Virus record (IMG/VR): IMGVR_UViG_3300037246_002080 | Span: 1-35,293 of that record | Source of the DNA: a virus | DNA length: 35,293 nt | Reading direction: 5' to 3' (one strand) | In this document: positions 2,841-27,105 of the stretch, in pieces | Layout of the letters: each line of letters begins with the position of its first letter | Position numbering within the stretch: the first letter of the stretch is position 1 | Notes under the pieces: model-generated | Told to the model about the DNA's origin: nothing | Databases searched by the model: none | Seen by the model: the letters and a program-made list of their open reading frames with translations, nothing else | Position numbers and translations under genes: made by a program

Positions 2841-4154
2841 TCATCCCTCGCTCTGCAATCGCAACAGTGCAATGTTATAAGCTTCTTCAAGAAGCTCTAT
2901 CCCAACACAAGAAAGTCCATGTTTATGTCCTGCAACAAGAGATGAACCTGAACCTGCAAAAGGATCTAAAAGAGACTCTCCAGCAATGCAACTTCTACTT
3001 ATAAGTTCCGTCAACACTTCTACAGGTTTTTCTGTTGGATGAGACTTGTCTTTAAGAGGAGGAATTTGAAACCAATCAGGTCTACCCTGTTTGATAAGTT
3101 TAGAATCTTTCTTCCTAGCATAAAGCACCATCTCATAACAACTTGAAGGCCAACAGTGTGGAGCATTGTTTTGCCCACCAGCATTTTTAATCCATATAAG
3201 AGGTCTTACATGAACTAACCAACCAGCACTTTTGAAAAGAGTGCTTATAATTGTAAAGAACTCTGGCGCTACAAATATATAAGCATGAGCATCATCAGTT
3301 GTCACTCTAAAAGATTCTTTTGCCAACATATGATATAGGTTTAAAGCATTATCTTTAGAATCATCAAAGGTAAAACCTGATGTATTTTCGCCTCCAGTTT
3401 TACCTCCTATAGACATAGCAATTTTATCTATAAGTATTCCGAATGGAGGATCTGTGCAAAGGATATTAAATATCTTGTCTGGAAGACTTTTTAAAATCTC
3501 TCTGGAATCGCCATGATGTAAGGTAATGTGTTCCATTGTGGAACAATTCGCCTTAACTTTTAGAGCATCTGAAGCTCTTGATATAACCCTTTCAGCAACC
3601 TTTCCTACTTTTAAAATCTCACTTAAAGATGTAGCCTTTTTTGCTTTTGGGAAGGTTTTTACAATTTGTGCAGCTTGGAGCTGGCGACTTACCGTTGCTT
3701 TACTCTTACCAATAAGTTTTGCAGTGTTATCATAGCCCCAACCTTCTCCGCCTCTACCCAATGCAATAGCACCATGTTGGAGTACTTTAATATTGTGTAT
3801 TTGCTCTATAGCGTTAGCTTCTTCAGCAGGAGTAAGATCTTTTCTGTAGATATTCTCTTCGAGTTCTAAAATTCTCATATCGAGATTTGTAAGTTCTTCT
3901 CGTTGTACACAAAGAATATCTATTCCTAGCATTTGACAAGCTAAAAGTCTTCTACCTCCTGCAACGAGTTCAACAGTTCTTTCTTCTTCTTTGTTGGCAG
4001 AAGTAGATACTAAGATTGGTTGTATCTGACCTTTTGTTTTTATTGACTCCATGAGTTCAGTTATAGAACCCATATCCTTTCTTATCCTCTCAAGACCATC
4101 TCGAACAAAGATAGTTTTTGGGTCTACCTTAAACAGCTGTACTTCAGTCTTCAT
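2841..4154 (-). CDS. ParB-domain / DNA methyltransferase fusion
   Basis: A 437-residue fusion. Residues about 5-125 form a ParB/Srx-like domain with GGRRLLA at 66-72 and the ENIYRKDLTPAEEA segment from 100. Residues about 142-165 (DNTAKLIGKSKATVSRQLQ) form a helix-turn-helix like that of ParB. Residues about 205-430 are an AdoMet-dependent amino-methyltransferase: catalytic motif IV DPPF at 235-238 and the AdoMet-binding DPFAGSGSS at 397-405, after HPTEKP at 372-377. Motif IV preceding motif I is the beta-class order; N6-adenine or N4-cytosine cannot be told apart here. No restriction endonuclease is next to it, so DNA self-protection or regulation is more likely than a restriction system. 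The start at 4154 has AAAGGA 6-7 bases upstream. Confidence 0.88.
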   Translation of the reverse strand: MKTEVQLFKVDPKTIFVRDGLERIRKDMGSITELMESIKTKGQIQPILVSTSANKEEERTVELVAGGRRLLACQMLGIDILCVQREELTNLDMRILELEENIYRKDLTPAEEANAIEQIHNIKVLQHGAIALGRGGEGWGYDNTAKLIGKSKATVSRQLQAAQIVKTFPKAKKATSLSEILKVGKVAERVISRASDALKVKANCSTMEHITLHHGDSREILKSLPDKIFNILCTDPPFGILIDKIAMSIGGKTGGENTSGFTFDDSKDNALNLYHMLAKESFRVTTDDAHAYIFVAPEFFTIISTLFKSAGWLVHVRPLIWIKNAGGQNNAPHCWPSSCYEMVLYARKKDSKLIKQGRPDWFQIPPLKDKSHPTEKPVEVLTELISRSCIAGESLLDPFAGSGSSLVAGHKHGLSCVGIELLEEAYNIALLRLQSEG

Positions 4155-4311
4155 TAAGTTTCCTTTCAAGAGCAAGTAATTCTTTTTCAAAATCTTTTAT
4201 GAGTACATATTCAGTATTTACCGGTAGAAATGAGTGTACCTGTAGATTCCTATCAATATAAATACATACATTTTTTCTTATAATTGCAACAAGTTCTTTT
4301 GCCTCTTTCAT
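4144..4311 (-). CDS. Small hypothetical protein (55 aa)
   Basis: A short open frame beginning MKEAKELVAIIRKN and ending LLALERKLNED. Not recognised. Its ATG overlaps the stop of the upstream gene as ATGA, and its own end overlaps the methyltransferase start by 11 bases. This tight chain of coupled genes is the main support; there is no strong ribosome site of its own. Confidence 0.6.
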   Translation of the reverse strand: MKEAKELVAIIRKNVCIYIDRNLQVHSFLPVNTEYVLIKDFEKELLALERKLNED

Positions 4312-17196: not shown

Positions 17197-17372
17197 ACCT
17201 CCAGAAGATGCTAAAAAAGAATGAAAAATTTAGACTGTTCTTTCAAATAGCCTGGAAAAATCCTAATATTAAAAAAGACTTTTTAGATCAAAACTCCACT
17301 TGCTATGCTGTAGAAGTAGAAGAAAATGTAACTTTTTTCCTTACTCTTGGAGGTTCAGATGCAAGCCACTGA
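17193..17372 (+). CDS. Small hypothetical protein (59 aa)
   Basis: Begins MNLQKMLKKNEKFRLFF and ends VTFFLTLGGSDASH. Its ATG overlaps the small-terminase stop as ATGA, and its end overlaps the large-terminase start by 14 bases. A GGAG site precedes it. Not recognised; probably a late accessory protein. Confidence 0.6.
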   Translation: MNLQKMLKKNEKFRLFFQIAWKNPNIKKDFLDQNSTCYAVEVEENVTFFLTLGGSDASH

Positions 17373-22159: not shown

Positions 22160-23119
22160 ATGGAAAACTGGATTGATAAGGGCGGTTATTATACTAATAA
22201 TCAGTTTAATAACACCCTTCGAGTTGTTGCTCAGCCAAAGCAGCGCTTTAGGCAGTTTACATCTCTTAAAGAAGCATTTGGTGCATCACAAGGTGACTCT
22301 ATCAACTGGGATAGAGCCTATAATGTTGACACAATCGGTGGTAAGCTGGTTGAAACCAATACTATGCACAAGTCTAACATTCCTGTTGTAAAGGGAACTC
22401 TTACTGTAGACGAATTTGGTAACAGTGTCCCTTTCACCAAGAAAGTTGATTTGCTTTCTGAGATAGATGTGAACGACCTCCTTAAAGGAGGACTCTCAAA
22501 TGACCAGTCCAAAGTTTTGGATATTCTCGTTGAGAGTGAGTTCAATAAAACTCCACTTCGTTATGTTGCGACTGCAGCTGCTGCTGCTACCCTCACAACT
22601 AACACTGTAGCTGGAGCGACCAATAACATAGGTCTTAACCGTTATCATGCAAGGAAAATGGTTAATGAACTTATGACTAGAAGTGTACCTGGCTTCGCAT
22701 CTGCTGATGGGGATTATGTAGGTATTTTCAGTGTTGAGGACATGGAGTCTCTCGCTGCTGACCTTGAGTCCATAAATCAGTATATCGAGACAGGGCACAA
22801 GAAAATTGCTGCTGGTGAAGTTGGCAGGTACTATGGTTGTAGGTTCCTCATTGACAATAATGCTTTGAGGTATACTACAGACTTGGATGCCAGAACTCAA
22901 ACAGCACTTTCCTGGTCTAATAGTAAAGCCTTTCCAGGTTATATCTTTGGAGCAGACACGGTAAGGGAAGCTATAGTTATCCCTGAGGAATTGAGAGCTA
23001 AGAACATCACTGATTACGGTCGGTCGCATGGTCTTGCTTGGTATTTCCTTGGAGGTTATGCTATAGAGTGGCCGGAACACCAGTATGCGCGAATCATCAA
23101 ATGGGATTCGGACGCTTAA
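22160..23119 (+). CDS. Major capsid protein (N4-gp56 type, HK97 fold)
   Basis: A 319-residue protein after the scaffold. Typical segments are the N-terminal YTNNQFNNTLRVVAQPKQRF, GDSINWDRAYNVDT, the ...VPFTKKVDLLSEIDVND middle with an Ala-rich stretch (ATAAAAATLTTNT), and a C-terminal YFLGGYAIEWPEHQYARIIKW. These fit the N4-gp56 family of phage major capsid proteins. By eye the codons are more selected and GC-richer than in neighbours, as expected for the most abundant virion protein. GAGG lies before the ATG. Confidence 0.85.
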   Translation: MENWIDKGGYYTNNQFNNTLRVVAQPKQRFRQFTSLKEAFGASQGDSINWDRAYNVDTIGGKLVETNTMHKSNIPVVKGTLTVDEFGNSVPFTKKVDLLSEIDVNDLLKGGLSNDQSKVLDILVESEFNKTPLRYVATAAAAATLTTNTVAGATNNIGLNRYHARKMVNELMTRSVPGFASADGDYVGIFSVEDMESLAADLESINQYIETGHKKIAAGEVGRYYGCRFLIDNNALRYTTDLDARTQTALSWSNSKAFPGYIFGADTVREAIVIPEELRAKNITDYGRSHGLAWYFLGGYAIEWPEHQYARIIKWDSDA

Positions 23120-23134
23120 TAGGAGGTATTAGTT

Positions 23135-23554
23135 ATGGATAGAAATGATGCCTTTTATGACGATGATCGCTTTGGTCATGAAAAAGCAAGCCTGCTTACT
23201 ACCCTTGCAGGTGCAACACTTGGAGGAACATCAGGAGATGTAGAAGTATCTCGGATACGACTCCATGAGAGGTCTAAGATTACTGGCGTAGATTTACTGT
23301 ATCTTACAGGTGGTACTTGCGCTCCTGCAGATGCTTCTATAGATGTGCAGTATTCGTTAGGTGGTACTGGTTCTGCAGTTTCATTTGGTACTCATGCGAT
23401 GGGTACAACTGGTGCTAATAGTATGCAGACTATGACACTTAGTACTTCTCCTGTTCTTGACTCTGGTGACCAGATAATTCTTAGGCAACTTGCCGGAACA
23501 GTTGGACCAGAACCTGTGGCTCAGATACGTGCTCTTTGGAAGCCGAATTTCTAG
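23135..23554 (+). CDS. Probable capsid decoration or head protein (139 aa)
   Basis: A beta-rich protein (SRIRLHERSKITGVDLLYLTG, then VQYSLGGTGSAVSFGT, then QIILRQLAG) that follows the major capsid gene by 15 bases with AGGAGG before its ATG. Position and beta-sandwich style suggest a head decoration protein; no family is certain. A strong hairpin follows it. Confidence 0.5.
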   Translation: MDRNDAFYDDDRFGHEKASLLTTLAGATLGGTSGDVEVSRIRLHERSKITGVDLLYLTGGTCAPADASIDVQYSLGGTGSAVSFGTHAMGTTGANSMQTMTLSTSPVLDSGDQIILRQLAGTVGPEPVAQIRALWKPNF

Positions 23555-23568
23555 TGAGTAAATGTGGA

Positions 23569-23600
23569 TGGCAGGGAGAAATTAGTAGCTCTCCCTGCCA
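23569..23600 (+). terminator. Perfect 11-bp hairpin after capsid genes
   Basis: Arms TGGCAGGGAGA (23569-23579) and TCTCCCTGCCA (23590-23600) with a 10-base loop. No T-run follows, so it is more likely a partial terminator or an mRNA-stabilising end for the highly expressed capsid genes than a full stop. Confidence 0.6.
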
Positions 23601-23615
23601 GAAACATAAGATTAA

Positions 23616-24821
23616 TTGTTGCGTAATGAAACGGAAAACCTTGTGGAAACAATAAAGTTCAATTCTATCGAGCCTGTACACATTCAATTAGGAGGAAAAA
23701 AGAAACCTACTATTGTTGTTGTAAGGTTTGGTGCGTATGGAGATTTACTTTTCATTTCTCCAATTATAAATGAACTTGCTAAAGGTTTTGATATACAACT
23801 TATAACAAATCGTAGAGGTTATGAGGTGTATCTTGAAGACCCAAGGGTAAAAGGTTTTCATTTGTTAGAACCACTTGCATTACCTAAAGAAACTTGCCTT
23901 AAAGAAACACAAGATTTTGTTTTAAGTGTGCTAGATAAATTTCCTAAAGCAAAATGCTTAGACTGCACAGGAACTATAGAAGGTTCTCTTCTTTTTATAC
24001 CTGGAACCAAAGAGTTTAAGCTTCCTGTAAAAGCAAGAAGATTACTTATAAATAATAGAAGTTATTTTCATTCTGTTCTACCAAGATTAGGTAACATGGG
24101 TATTTCTTTTGAAGCTCTTTGTATGAAAAGTTATAATGTAACTTCTTCTGAGGACTATCAAATTTCCACTTGGGCTGCAAAACATAGAACTGATTTTAAA
24201 GTGTTTATTGCTGTTTCAGGAAGTTGTCTTCATAAGCATTATGATAAAATGCCTGATCTTGTTATGAAAATACATGCTAAATATCCTGAAGCAAGAATAC
24301 ATCTTGTTGGAGGAAAGTTAGAAGCTGAAATTAGTTGGGTAAAGAAGTTATCAAAATTTGATAGGATTATAAATGTTTGTGGTACTTATCATATTAGACA
24401 AGTTTGGGCTTTGAGTCTTGCTTCAGACTTTACAGTCGGACCAGAAACAGCACTTTTAGTTCTTGCTGGTATGTATGGTGTACCTAAAGTTACATTACTG
24501 TCTCATTCAAGTCCTGCTCAATTTACATCAGTGCAGCAAAATGATATGTCACTTCAAGCTGAGTGTGATTGTTCTCCTTGTCATAAACTTGTAAAAAATA
24601 TTGAAGATTGTGACAATGTGATTAGAGGTATACCTGCTTGTGTTAGTGCTTTTAATTTAGAAACAATTATGAGTAAAGTTGATTCTGCATATTTACATTT
24701 TAAAGAGAATCTTGAAAAGACTGCAAAATACTATACTGAACCTAAATGTTCAATAATATCAGGTGTAACATTAAAGCTTAATGAACTTATAAAGAGTGCA
24801 GAAGAATGTCAGAAAATATAA
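23616..24821 (+). CDS. GT9 (heptosyltransferase-type) glycosyltransferase 1
   Basis: A 401-residue GT-B-fold enzyme. The N-terminal VVVRFGAYGDLLFISPIINEL matches the RLGAIGD...P.l..L motif of LPS heptosyltransferases. The C-terminal domain has IAVSGSCLHKHY..MPDL, TVGPETALLVLAGMYGVPK and a Cys-rich CDCSPCHKL. These residues would bind a nucleotide sugar, and an unknown acceptor is glycosylated. Such genes are rare inside a virion operon. The start is unsure: TTG 23616 lacks a ribosome site; GTG at 23643 is an alternative. It overlaps the next GT gene by 16 bases. Confidence 0.8.
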   Translation: MLRNETENLVETIKFNSIEPVHIQLGGKKKPTIVVVRFGAYGDLLFISPIINELAKGFDIQLITNRRGYEVYLEDPRVKGFHLLEPLALPKETCLKETQDFVLSVLDKFPKAKCLDCTGTIEGSLLFIPGTKEFKLPVKARRLLINNRSYFHSVLPRLGNMGISFEALCMKSYNVTSSEDYQISTWAAKHRTDFKVFIAVSGSCLHKHYDKMPDLVMKIHAKYPEARIHLVGGKLEAEISWVKKLSKFDRIINVCGTYHIRQVWALSLASDFTVGPETALLVLAGMYGVPKVTLLSHSSPAQFTSVQQNDMSLQAECDCSPCHKLVKNIEDCDNVIRGIPACVSAFNLETIMSKVDSAYLHFKENLEKTAKYYTEPKCSIISGVTLKLNELIKSAEECQKI

Positions 24822-25792
24822 AAAAGGTTCTTGTTATAAGGCTTGGCGCTATAGGAGATATGATTATAATGTCTCCAGTTTTGAAAGCTTTAAAAGAGGA
24901 TGGTTACGAGATCACACTTAATCTTAAAAAATACAGTTTTCCAGCTGTCAGGCATAACCCAAATATAGATGCCTTTATCTTTCATGATGAAGAAATTAAA
25001 CCTGAAAATCTTGAAGCTCATTGGCTTAAACTTGCAGAAGGTTTTGACCTTTGTGTAAATCTTTCAGGAAGTATAGAAGGTTCTTTGCTGTTAAAAGAGG
25101 GAACACCTGAATTTGACTGGCCTCATGAGAAACGGCACAAAGAATGTAATATAAACTACTATGATAGAATGTTTATGATTCCAAGTATGCCTCAAAGAGG
25201 AAAGGTTGGTGAACTCTATTTCTCAAAAGAAGAAACAAATTGGGCTAGACATTTTAGAAAAAAGCATGAAAATAAGTTTCTTATTGTGTGGAGTCTTGCT
25301 GGGTCTTCTTTTCATAAGGCCTATCCGTATGCTGAAGAGGTCGCAGTTGAGTTTCTTGACAAGCATGAAGATGCTTATATTGTTACTGTAGGTGGTTCTT
25401 TTGAGCAAATTTTAGCTTTTCAGCATGAAAGAGCTTATGATAGAAGTGGTAAATGGGAGATGTGGAGGACTCTTATTCTTACAAAATATGCAAACCTTGT
25501 AGTTGCACCAGAGACTGGAACATTGAACGCTGCAGGTTGTTTTAAAACGCCAAAAATTGCTATGTTGTCGCACTCTTCAGAAGAAAATCTTACAAAATAC
25601 TTTGAAAATTGTGATAATATACATGGAGAAGCAGATTGTTACCCTTGTCATAGACTTATTTATACTAGAACAGCTTGTCCTATAAGTCCTGATTCTAGAG
25701 TGAGTATTTGTATGTCAAGGATTTCAAAAAATAAACTTTTATCTTTAATGGAAGGATGGTACGAGAAATGGGAAAAGAAACAATTGATATAG
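24806..25792 (+). CDS. GT9 (heptosyltransferase-type) glycosyltransferase 2
   Basis: A 328-residue GT9 paralogue of the preceding product. RLGAIGDMIIMSPVLKALK is at the N-terminus, SLAGSSFHKAYPYAE in the middle, and APETGTLNAAGCFKTPKIAM plus CYPCHRL near the end. This is close to bacterial LPS heptosyltransferases. The two tandem enzymes likely act in sequence or on two acceptors; the acceptor may be a virion protein or a host glycan. It overlaps both neighbours, so it is cotranslated with the late proteins. Confidence 0.85.
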   Translation: MSENIKKVLVIRLGAIGDMIIMSPVLKALKEDGYEITLNLKKYSFPAVRHNPNIDAFIFHDEEIKPENLEAHWLKLAEGFDLCVNLSGSIEGSLLLKEGTPEFDWPHEKRHKECNINYYDRMFMIPSMPQRGKVGELYFSKEETNWARHFRKKHENKFLIVWSLAGSSFHKAYPYAEEVAVEFLDKHEDAYIVTVGGSFEQILAFQHERAYDRSGKWEMWRTLILTKYANLVVAPETGTLNAAGCFKTPKIAMLSHSSEENLTKYFENCDNIHGEADCYPCHRLIYTRTACPISPDSRVSICMSRISKNKLLSLMEGWYEKWEKKQLI

Positions 25793-26232
25793 CATCTATT
25801 ACAAATGCTGGCAGGATAATGAAAGATGCTGCAGTCTATGTAAAGGATATGGATACGCAAAAAATTTACACTACTCATGGTGTAAGAGTTCCTGAACTGG
25901 AAGGTGAATTTAAAAGTTCTATTGCAGGTCAGGCTAAGATTCATTGGGAACTTCTTAAGAAACAGGGCTATGCTTTTCTTGAGATGCTAAGTCCTACAGA
26001 ACTTGAAAAACTTAGGAAGTTTTACGCTGTTGATACTCAAAAAGGTAAGGAAATACTTCTTTGTAAACTTGCTGAAGCTGTTAAAAAGACTGGAGCAAAG
26101 TCAGATACAGTTATTGCTTTTGCTCGAATGGTTGAAGTTGCTGAAGAACCTTCTAATGTAGTAGTTAAGAAGCTTTCAAGTGCTTCTGGTGCTACAGTTT
26201 TTGACAAAAAACCTATTAAAGTGGTTACATAG
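25768..26232 (+). CDS. Hypothetical late protein (154 aa)
   Basis: Not recognised. Helical and charged (GQAKIHWELLKKQGYAFLEML, then LCKLAEAVKKTGAK), with an N-terminal beta part. The start at 25768 is preferred since the ATG four codons earlier is directly against its ribosome site. It lies between the GT genes and the head-tail adaptor, so it may be a virion or assembly protein. Confidence 0.55.
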   Translation: MGKETIDIASITNAGRIMKDAAVYVKDMDTQKIYTTHGVRVPELEGEFKSSIAGQAKIHWELLKKQGYAFLEMLSPTELEKLRKFYAVDTQKGKEILLCKLAEAVKKTGAKSDTVIAFARMVEVAEEPSNVVVKKLSSASGATVFDKKPIKVVT

Positions 26233-26241
26233 GAGTAATTA

Positions 26242-27105
26242 ATGTCAGTACCTTCTGATGCTACGGAAATAAGTATTATAGATAGAGGGCTTGAAAAGGC
26301 TGGAGTGGAGGGGAGTTCTACATATCAAACTGCAGGACTAACTTGGTTCAGAGATGTAAAGGCGCTTATTTATAGTAAAGTAAGACAACAGAAATTTTTG
26401 CAACAAACAAAGATTACTGTACTTACTAAAGGTGTTACAAATTACAGTGTCCCTCAAGACTTTGATGAAATTTATAAAGAACCTGGCCTTTTAAAAGGCG
26501 ATATCAAGTATAATGCTCAAGGTGGTACACTTAATACTTTAACACTTTCTATTTCTGATAGCATTTCAGAAGGTAGCATCGTAGGTAAAAAAATTCTTGT
26601 TCTTGCTGGAACTAATGTTAATGAGTACAGGCAAGTTTCTGCATATGATTCAGTAACGAGAATTGCTACTTTGTCTGAAGACTGGTCAAATGTTCCAGAT
26701 ACAACAACTGAGTATCTGGTTATCACTAAAGTTATTCCTCTTAATCTTTATGGAGGTGGTGTTGGTGATGGGAAGTTTGAGCATCTTTCTTTAGACCTAC
26801 CTACAGATTATGTGGAATATGATGAAGAGCTATACCTTTACCCTACTCCAGATAAATCCGAATATGGTTTACTTCTTAGATACTATAGTAACATTATTAA
26901 AACTAATAATACTGATGCTGTTTACACAAGATTTCTTAACAGATGCGAAGCTGCTCTTGTGCAATTTATTTATTTTAGTGCACTTAAAAAGATGGACGAT
27001 TCTAGTTCTTCTAAAGAGGAGGGAGTATTCTTTGGTATGCTTAGAGGACTTCTTGCTAAAGAAACTCCTACATCAAATGAACTCAAAAGGAGACTTAAAA
27101 GATGA
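26242..27105 (+). CDS. Head-tail adaptor / connector-type protein (287 aa, probable)
   Basis: A 287-residue protein with an N-terminal helical part (IIDRGLEKAGVEG...LTWFRDVKALIYSKV), a middle beta insertion (QGGTLNTLTLSISDSISEG, then YDSVTRIATLSEDW) and a C-terminal helical part (RFLNRCEAALVQFIYFSALKKM). The helical parts and the WFRDVK start resemble phage adaptor proteins which sit under the portal. AGGAG lies before the ATG. Family certainty is moderate. Confidence 0.55.
   Translation: MSVPSDATEISIIDRGLEKAGVEGSSTYQTAGLTWFRDVKALIYSKVRQQKFLQQTKITVLTKGVTNYSVPQDFDEIYKEPGLLKGDIKYNAQGGTLNTLTLSISDSISEGSIVGKKILVLAGTNVNEYRQVSAYDSVTRIATLSEDWSNVPDTTTEYLVITKVIPLNLYGGGVGDGKFEHLSLDLPTDYVEYDEELYLYPTPDKSEYGLLLRYYSNIIKTNNTDAVYTRFLNRCEAALVQFIYFSALKKMDDSSSSKEEGVFFGMLRGLLAKETPTSNELKRRLKR

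Follow-up and report, generated by a model that had tools for sequence, protein, structure and literature searches.

Glycosyltransferases (GTs) of family GT9 whose function is known mostly build the core of lipopolysaccharide (LPS), and the alpha- and beta-glucosyltransferases of phage T4 glycosylate modified DNA bases. Glycosylation of the virion is, to our knowledge, known mainly from mycobacteriophages. According to the accounts of Freeman 2023 given in PMC12363180 and PMC11256854, GTs encoded by these phages glycosylate capsid and tail tube proteins, and PMC12619734 also describes mycobacteriophage virion glycosylation. TibC, a GT of the same fold as the enzymes studied here, glycosylates a protein (PMC4358343). 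Here we describe two GT9-type genes, GT1 and GT2, in the head block of a virus. The window, that is the whole stretch of DNA that was analysed, comprises 35,293 bases of the IMG/VR virus record IMGVR_UViG_3300037246_002080, and this record is a fragment.

The head block and its slot

The late block of the window is located on the + strand and starts at 17347. It contains the following features:

17347 (start), + strand: terminase, late block
18970 (start), + strand: SU10-type portal, late block
22160..23119, + strand: major capsid protein, with whose gene the GT family is associated (match to phrog_1357, major head protein, at E=3e-17)
23135..23554, + strand: candidate decoration (cement) protein, a predicted jelly-roll of 139 aa, which probably is either the acceptor for GT1 or a partner co-adapted to it (predicted model, recurrence in loci with GT1)
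23569..23600, + strand: RNA hairpin with an 11-bp stem and a 10-nt loop, between the decoration gene and GT1 (MFE -27.3 kcal/mol, z -4.1)
23616..24821, + strand: GT1, GT9-type glycosyltransferase, 401 aa (PF01075, motifs, tree)
24806..25792, + strand: GT2, GT9-type glycosyltransferase, 328 aa (AlphaFold model, VIA, invariant residues)
25756..26232, + strand: ORF of 158 aa that overlaps GT2 by 37 bp (ORF call)
26242..27105, + strand: SU10-type head-tail adaptor, downstream border of the slot (PF24175 SU10_adaptor, 32.8 bits, over cut-off)
27269 (start), + strand: long fibre-like protein, late block

The capsid protein showed 36-38% identity to those of Vibrio phage 219E41.1 and the E. coli phages PTXU04 and Bas95. 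Both GT ORFs had been given in the first-pass annotation with exactly these coordinates and lengths, and the slot between the decoration and adaptor genes was also right, except that the 158-aa ORF separates GT2 from the adaptor gene. For this ORF no Pfam match, no confident PHROG and no homologue among the loci fetched was found. The annotation had also claimed that the genes overlap their neighbours, and this applies to GT1 and GT2 (16 bp) and to GT2 and the next ORF (37 bp) but not to the upstream side, where a gap of 61 bp separates the decoration gene from GT1. Since this gap bears a perfect 11-bp-stem hairpin (fold z = -4.1), GT expression may step down from the level of capsid expression. 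The hairpin lacks a T-run and is thus not a classical terminator; in PTXU04, a terminator is annotated behind the corresponding gene. The start codon of GT1 is TTG, and this start is uncertain, as conservation is lacking over the first ~30 residues and a ribosome-binding site is not clearly recognizable.

The two GTs are the only glycan-related genes in the window's own slot, and genes for the synthesis of sugar nucleotides were not found beside the pair. Elsewhere in the window, on the - strand, genes for ThyX and a deoxynucleoside monophosphate kinase (DNMK) lie side by side at 749-1923, and an N6/N4 DNA methylase fused to a ParB N-terminal domain is encoded at 2841-4190.

Family, fold and distribution of the two enzymes

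In blastp, GT1 and GT2 align over 336 columns with 25% identity (E = 4e-36) and are thus paralogues, in agreement with the first-pass annotation, which had read them as two related GT9-type enzymes. In a search with PF01075 (Glyco_transf_9), GT1 reached 26 bits and passed the cut-off of 22, whereas GT2 stayed under it with 11.4 bits and was assigned by its predicted fold. The AlphaFold model of GT2, which was built with 77 relatives, had a pLDDT of 96.7 and a pTM of 0.93. Its top VIA matches were 3TOV, a Veillonella GT9 and the best solved match (Z 24.8), WaaF (23.6), TibC (21.3) and WaaC (20.9); the next enzyme family outside GT9 followed only at Z 15.2. The predicted fold is unambiguously that of a GT9/heptosyltransferase of the GT-B type. 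When PDB sequences were searched with the GT profile A6, 3TOV was found at E=6e-7.

The expected motifs are present in both proteins: a catalytic-type Asp43 (GAYGD), Lys207 (GSCLHK), PET 276-278 and Cys319/322/332/342 in GT1, and Asp18, Lys171, PET 235-237 and Cys278/281/291/302 in GT2. G17, D18 and K171 are invariant across 77 sequences; from WaaC and TibC, we take Asp18 to be the catalytic base position of GT9 enzymes and Lys171 the active-site lysine. Neither protein reached the NCBIfam equivalogs for LPS core heptosyltransferases I, II and III (TIGR02193/02195/02201), with 15.2 bits against a cut-off of 185.3 for GT1 and 19.1 against 170.2, 14 against 185.3 and 13.7 against 134.6 bits for GT2, and there was no match to either among the PHROGs. 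The CxPCH motif, which the first-pass annotation took as a mark of the LPS heptosyltransferase family, does not characterize the E. coli LPS enzymes, being absent in WaaF, WaaC, WaaQ and WaaU. The four-cysteine (Cys4) pattern was present in 109 of the 118 phage GTs in the loci read, and similar patterns occur in some other bacterial GT9s. The idea that this pattern might mark protein heptosyltransferases of the TibC kind was abandoned, as some ordinary bacterial GT9s have it too.

In IMG/VR, which consists of fragments, a search with a GT alignment matched at least 599 stretches, at least 566 of which encode relatives, and the best 80 were fetched and read. Scans with single sequences (GT1, GT2 or the capsid protein), for which near-exact 8-mers are required, gave no relatives, and neither did a two-sequence GT alignment. 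Since intact homologues with 33-47% identity hold the same position in many other phages, GT1 and GT2 are not chance ORFs. Among cultured phages, neither GT had a tblastn match in 50,697 phage records at E up to 0.01, mycobacteriophages and their virion GTs included, and a DNA-level search with the head block found no match. A search of 84,980 species genomes from bacteria and archaea gave 16 loci, mostly prophage-like and most of them with the phage capsid gene upstream. One true member (446 bits) was detected in 300 genomes of the order of Aromatoleum, where the ten other hits were distant GT9s of at most 48.5 bits. The prophage-borne members in bacterial isolates include those of Pseudothauera rhizosphaerae CC-YHH848 (L143, in which capsid gene and GT are both intact) and Aromatoleum anaerobium LuFRes1 (L141), and their hosts encode LPS-type GT9 enzymes of their own. 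Judged by these searches, the clade of GT1 and GT2 is phage-specific, widespread in uncultured phages and rare in bacteria.

Linkage to the capsid gene and to a decoration-protein variant

Among the GT-selected loci with at least 6.5 kb of upstream sequence, 50 of 52 have the capsid type of the window upstream on the same strand; the IMG/VR relatives read were the best 80 of at least 566, and this choice, together with the definition of the family from capsid-linked loci, may favour linked members. The median distance between capsid gene and GT was 1.1 kb in all loci read, and the stop codon of the GT abuts or overlaps the start of the next gene in 68 of 101. In one of the two exceptions (L148), the gene directly upstream of the GT encodes another capsid protein in fusion with a prohead protease; the clade therefore keeps to the head block even where the capsid is of another type. 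This fusion, with a PF05065 capsid part, is located at L148:7378-9279 in a gammaproteobacterial MAG. In the opposite direction, a capsid alignment yielded 50 further IMG/VR loci that were not selected for a GT, and 13 of these have a GT2-like gene on the downstream side of the capsid gene. Of the 31 loci whose sequence continues for at least 3.5 kb downstream, 11 have it. PF01075 is blind to the phage clade, because it matched none of these 50 records though tblastn finds the GT gene in 13. Cultured phages do well without a GT in the slot: Vibrio 219E41.1, PTXU04 and Bas95, which share this capsid type, have none there. Gene order across these loci indicates that the GT family is a standing part of the head block in a large uncultured lineage of phages with SU10/N4-like capsids.

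We also observed that the gene for the major capsid protein is split into two parts, separated by about 1 kb, at L141:6509-8506 and L085:4782-6476, and also in L072, L128 and L139, as if interrupted by an intron or by insertion of a homing endonuclease. In Vibrio phage 1.232.O, an HNH gene lies just after the capsid gene.

Tandem pairs of a GT1-type and a GT2-type enzyme were present in five other loci (L057, L088, L074, L076 and L083). A maximum-likelihood tree built from 90 GT domains grouped GT1 with the upstream GT of these five pairs (100/99) and placed GT2 in another clade together with the downstream partners. GT1 is on a long branch and its exact place is unsure, although the grouping itself is supported, and in every pair its orthologue is the upstream gene. 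Because the two enzymes fall into two deep clades with a fixed order, the pair is, as far as the tree indicates, an old and ordered arrangement and not a recent duplication. The first-pass annotation suggested that the two may act in sequence; the fixed order of the two clades in six loci lends this some support, but no order of action follows from it.

The model predicted for the adjacent 139-aa protein is a jelly-roll (pLDDT 79.7), and its top VIA matches were cement or capsid chains of phages, namely KHP40 (Z 10.4), KHP30 (9.8), GP4 (9.6), Pam1 (9.2) and BPP-1 (9.1). As carbohydrate-binding modules follow at 8.7, a small margin, its identity as a decoration protein is likely and not proven. 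Used as a single-protein query, this variant was found in all five other loci with GT1, and among the GT-carrying loci otherwise weakly, in L070/L071 (E = 0.0016). After collapsing capsids with more than 95% identity, it occurred in 5 of 5 loci with GT1 and in 1 of 68 non-redundant loci without GT1 (P = 4e-7, for loci that are partly related and genes that are adjacent). Similarity of the capsids does not explain this link, because the five loci are scattered at ranks 12, 15, 85, 95 and 99 of 134 and do not group; the 11 nearest capsids have neither GT1 nor the decoration variant, and L074, L076 and L083, at ranks 85-99, carry both. Since the loci are partly related and the two genes adjacent, co-transfer is the minimal reading, and matching of enzyme and acceptor may be the stronger one. 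In the literature we found no work that joins a glycosyltransferase with a decoration protein.

The slot of relatives contains further enzymes. An N-terminal SAM-methyltransferase was fused to the GT in 60 of 120 GT ORFs read, and in most of the capsid-selected GTs (PF08241 up to 45 bits). Between the capsid or decoration gene and the GT, there are GT4 and GT2-family glycosyltransferases and several methyltransferase families, as well as sulfotransferases, hexapeptide acyltransferases, MptE-like proteins, radical SAM/SPASM proteins and GFO/IDH/MocA oxidoreductases. A protein of ~210 aa that recurs in loci near the window by capsid was identified as a sulfotransferase from its PF00685 match in L058 (23.9 bits, over cut-off). 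Phage-encoded PF00685 sulfotransferases were seen in the slot at L058:6680-7312, L079:7270-7944 and in about 11 further loci, and they would imply sulfated glycans on virions. The methyltransferase domain of L143:9347-10963 looks degenerate by reading, and the N-terminal domain of the GT in L084, L085, L089 and L123 had no match to a methyltransferase profile, as if the methyltransferase decays in these five loci while the GT is retained. Inserts unrelated to glycans also occur, such as HNH or GIY-YIG-like endonucleases and large beta-helix-like proteins. Secreted-looking proteins of 600-800 aa, resembling beta-helix surface proteins, were located directly upstream of the methyltransferase-GT fusion at L102:5323-7377, L104:4847-7282 and L121:5562-7358.

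Possible function and comparison with known systems

We think it rather likely that GT1 and GT2 are a tandem pair for virion glycosylation that acts on head proteins in the cytoplasm during particle production, the acceptor probably being the decoration and/or capsid protein. The first-pass annotation had named a capsid, decoration or fibre protein as possible targets, and the capsid and decoration part of this proposal is well supported by the context, that is the lock to the capsid, the enzymes of the slot and the co-occurrence of GT1 with the decoration variant. Late in infection, the two enzymes would be made alongside the head proteins and would use a nucleotide-activated sugar made by the host, ADP-heptose being the obvious candidate for a GT9 enzyme. 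Ser/Thr residues on an exposed head protein would receive the sugar, and this protein is probably the jelly-roll decoration protein encoded beside the GTs, the capsid protein, or both. GT2 would be the conserved core enzyme, and GT1 would add an activity that goes together with a single variant of the decoration protein. Relatives may tailor the glycan by means of the fused methyltransferase and, in some, of GT4/GT2, sulfotransferase and acyltransferase genes in the slot. Possible benefits are particle stability, shielding and adsorption or adhesion. A wider proposal, for which we see somewhat less than an even chance, is that the phage-restricted GT9 clade forms the core of a modular virion-glycan cassette in the head operon, with GT1 co-adapted to one decoration variant, so that decoration proteins and sugar coats diversify as matched modules.

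It is unlikely, in our judgement, that the GTs instead alter the LPS core or O-antigen of the host late in infection, for example to block superinfection or the rebinding of progeny to debris. The late-operon position alone is compatible with such an action on the envelope, GT9s of established function mainly make LPS core, WaaF and WaaC are among the closest solved folds, and the hosts of prophage-borne members have LPS-type GT9 enzymes of their own. However, the scores with the LPS heptosyltransferase models are far under the cut-offs (15.2 against 185.3 and 19.1 against 170.2 bits), and the GT is tied to the head block, not to a lysogeny-conversion or lysis module, with GT1 tracking the decoration variant. 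Metagenomic papers take such genes to modify LPS, and in one study of this kind a phage heptosyltransferase I was read as an LPS-modifying auxiliary gene (PMC10747093); for the change of the host surface that the first-pass annotation had offered as a second option, our analysis gave no positive evidence.

A target outside the head, such as a fibre protein, the adaptor or an assembly factor, with the capsid-side slot as a merely permissive insertion site, appears slightly less probable still. The slot of relatives does tolerate the unrelated endonucleases and beta-helix-like proteins mentioned above, and the GT there usually abuts the adaptor gene and not the decoration gene, but the co-occurrence of GT1 with the decoration variant and the concentration of glycan-modifying genes in the slot argue against this. 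Glycosylation of modified bases in the phage genome is very improbable: virus-encoded GTs that hypermodify DNA are a precedent (Pyle 2024, as cited in PMC12619734) and the window encodes Thy1 (210.8 bits) and DNMK (59.7 bits) at 749-1923, but in 25 longer, possibly incomplete, GT-carrying phage records DNMK and a ThyA-type hydroxymethylase/synthase were each found in 0 of 25 and ThyX in 1 of 25, and the GTs lie in the late head block and not among the early replication genes, which are on the opposite strand.

If glycosylation of head proteins by GT1 and GT2 is correct, a large uncultured lineage of phages that infect Gram-negative bacteria would commonly have sugar-coated heads, and phage auxiliary genes read as 'LPS heptosyltransferase' would, in hundreds of cases, encode capsid-modifying enzymes. 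The prophage-borne members in bacterial isolates make this idea testable at the bench.

In comparison to the LPS GT9s (WaaC, WaaF, WaaQ; PF01075; PDB 2H1H, 1PSW, 3TOV), the window GTs share the GT-B fold, the catalytic Asp in the N-terminal GD motif, the Lys and the (P)(D/E)T motif. They differ from the E. coli enzymes by an identity of only 14-19%, by scores below the LPS equivalog cut-offs, by the Cys4 CxPCH-C-C motif and by the phage-head context. The BAHT enzymes TibC and AAH, which act on Ser of a protein, have the same GT-B fold as GT2 and four cysteines near the C terminus. Residues 1-326 of the GT2 model align to TibC 90-394, with no counterpart of TibC 1-97, and GT2 is thus without the N-terminal beta-barrel described for this family (PMC4358343). 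The window GTs also differ in Cys spacing and have no autotransporter nearby, and their likeness to the four-cysteine iron-finger of BAHT is one of sequence pattern, shared with some ordinary bacterial GT9s. The mycobacteriophage GTs (Che8 gp110, Corndog gp38, Myrna; Freeman et al. 2023) are, similarly to what we propose for GT1 and GT2, encoded by the phage and proposed to act on its own capsid or tail proteins, whereas the clade found here has the GT9 fold, is tied to the capsid gene, is often fused to a methyltransferase and belongs mainly to phages of proteobacterial hosts.
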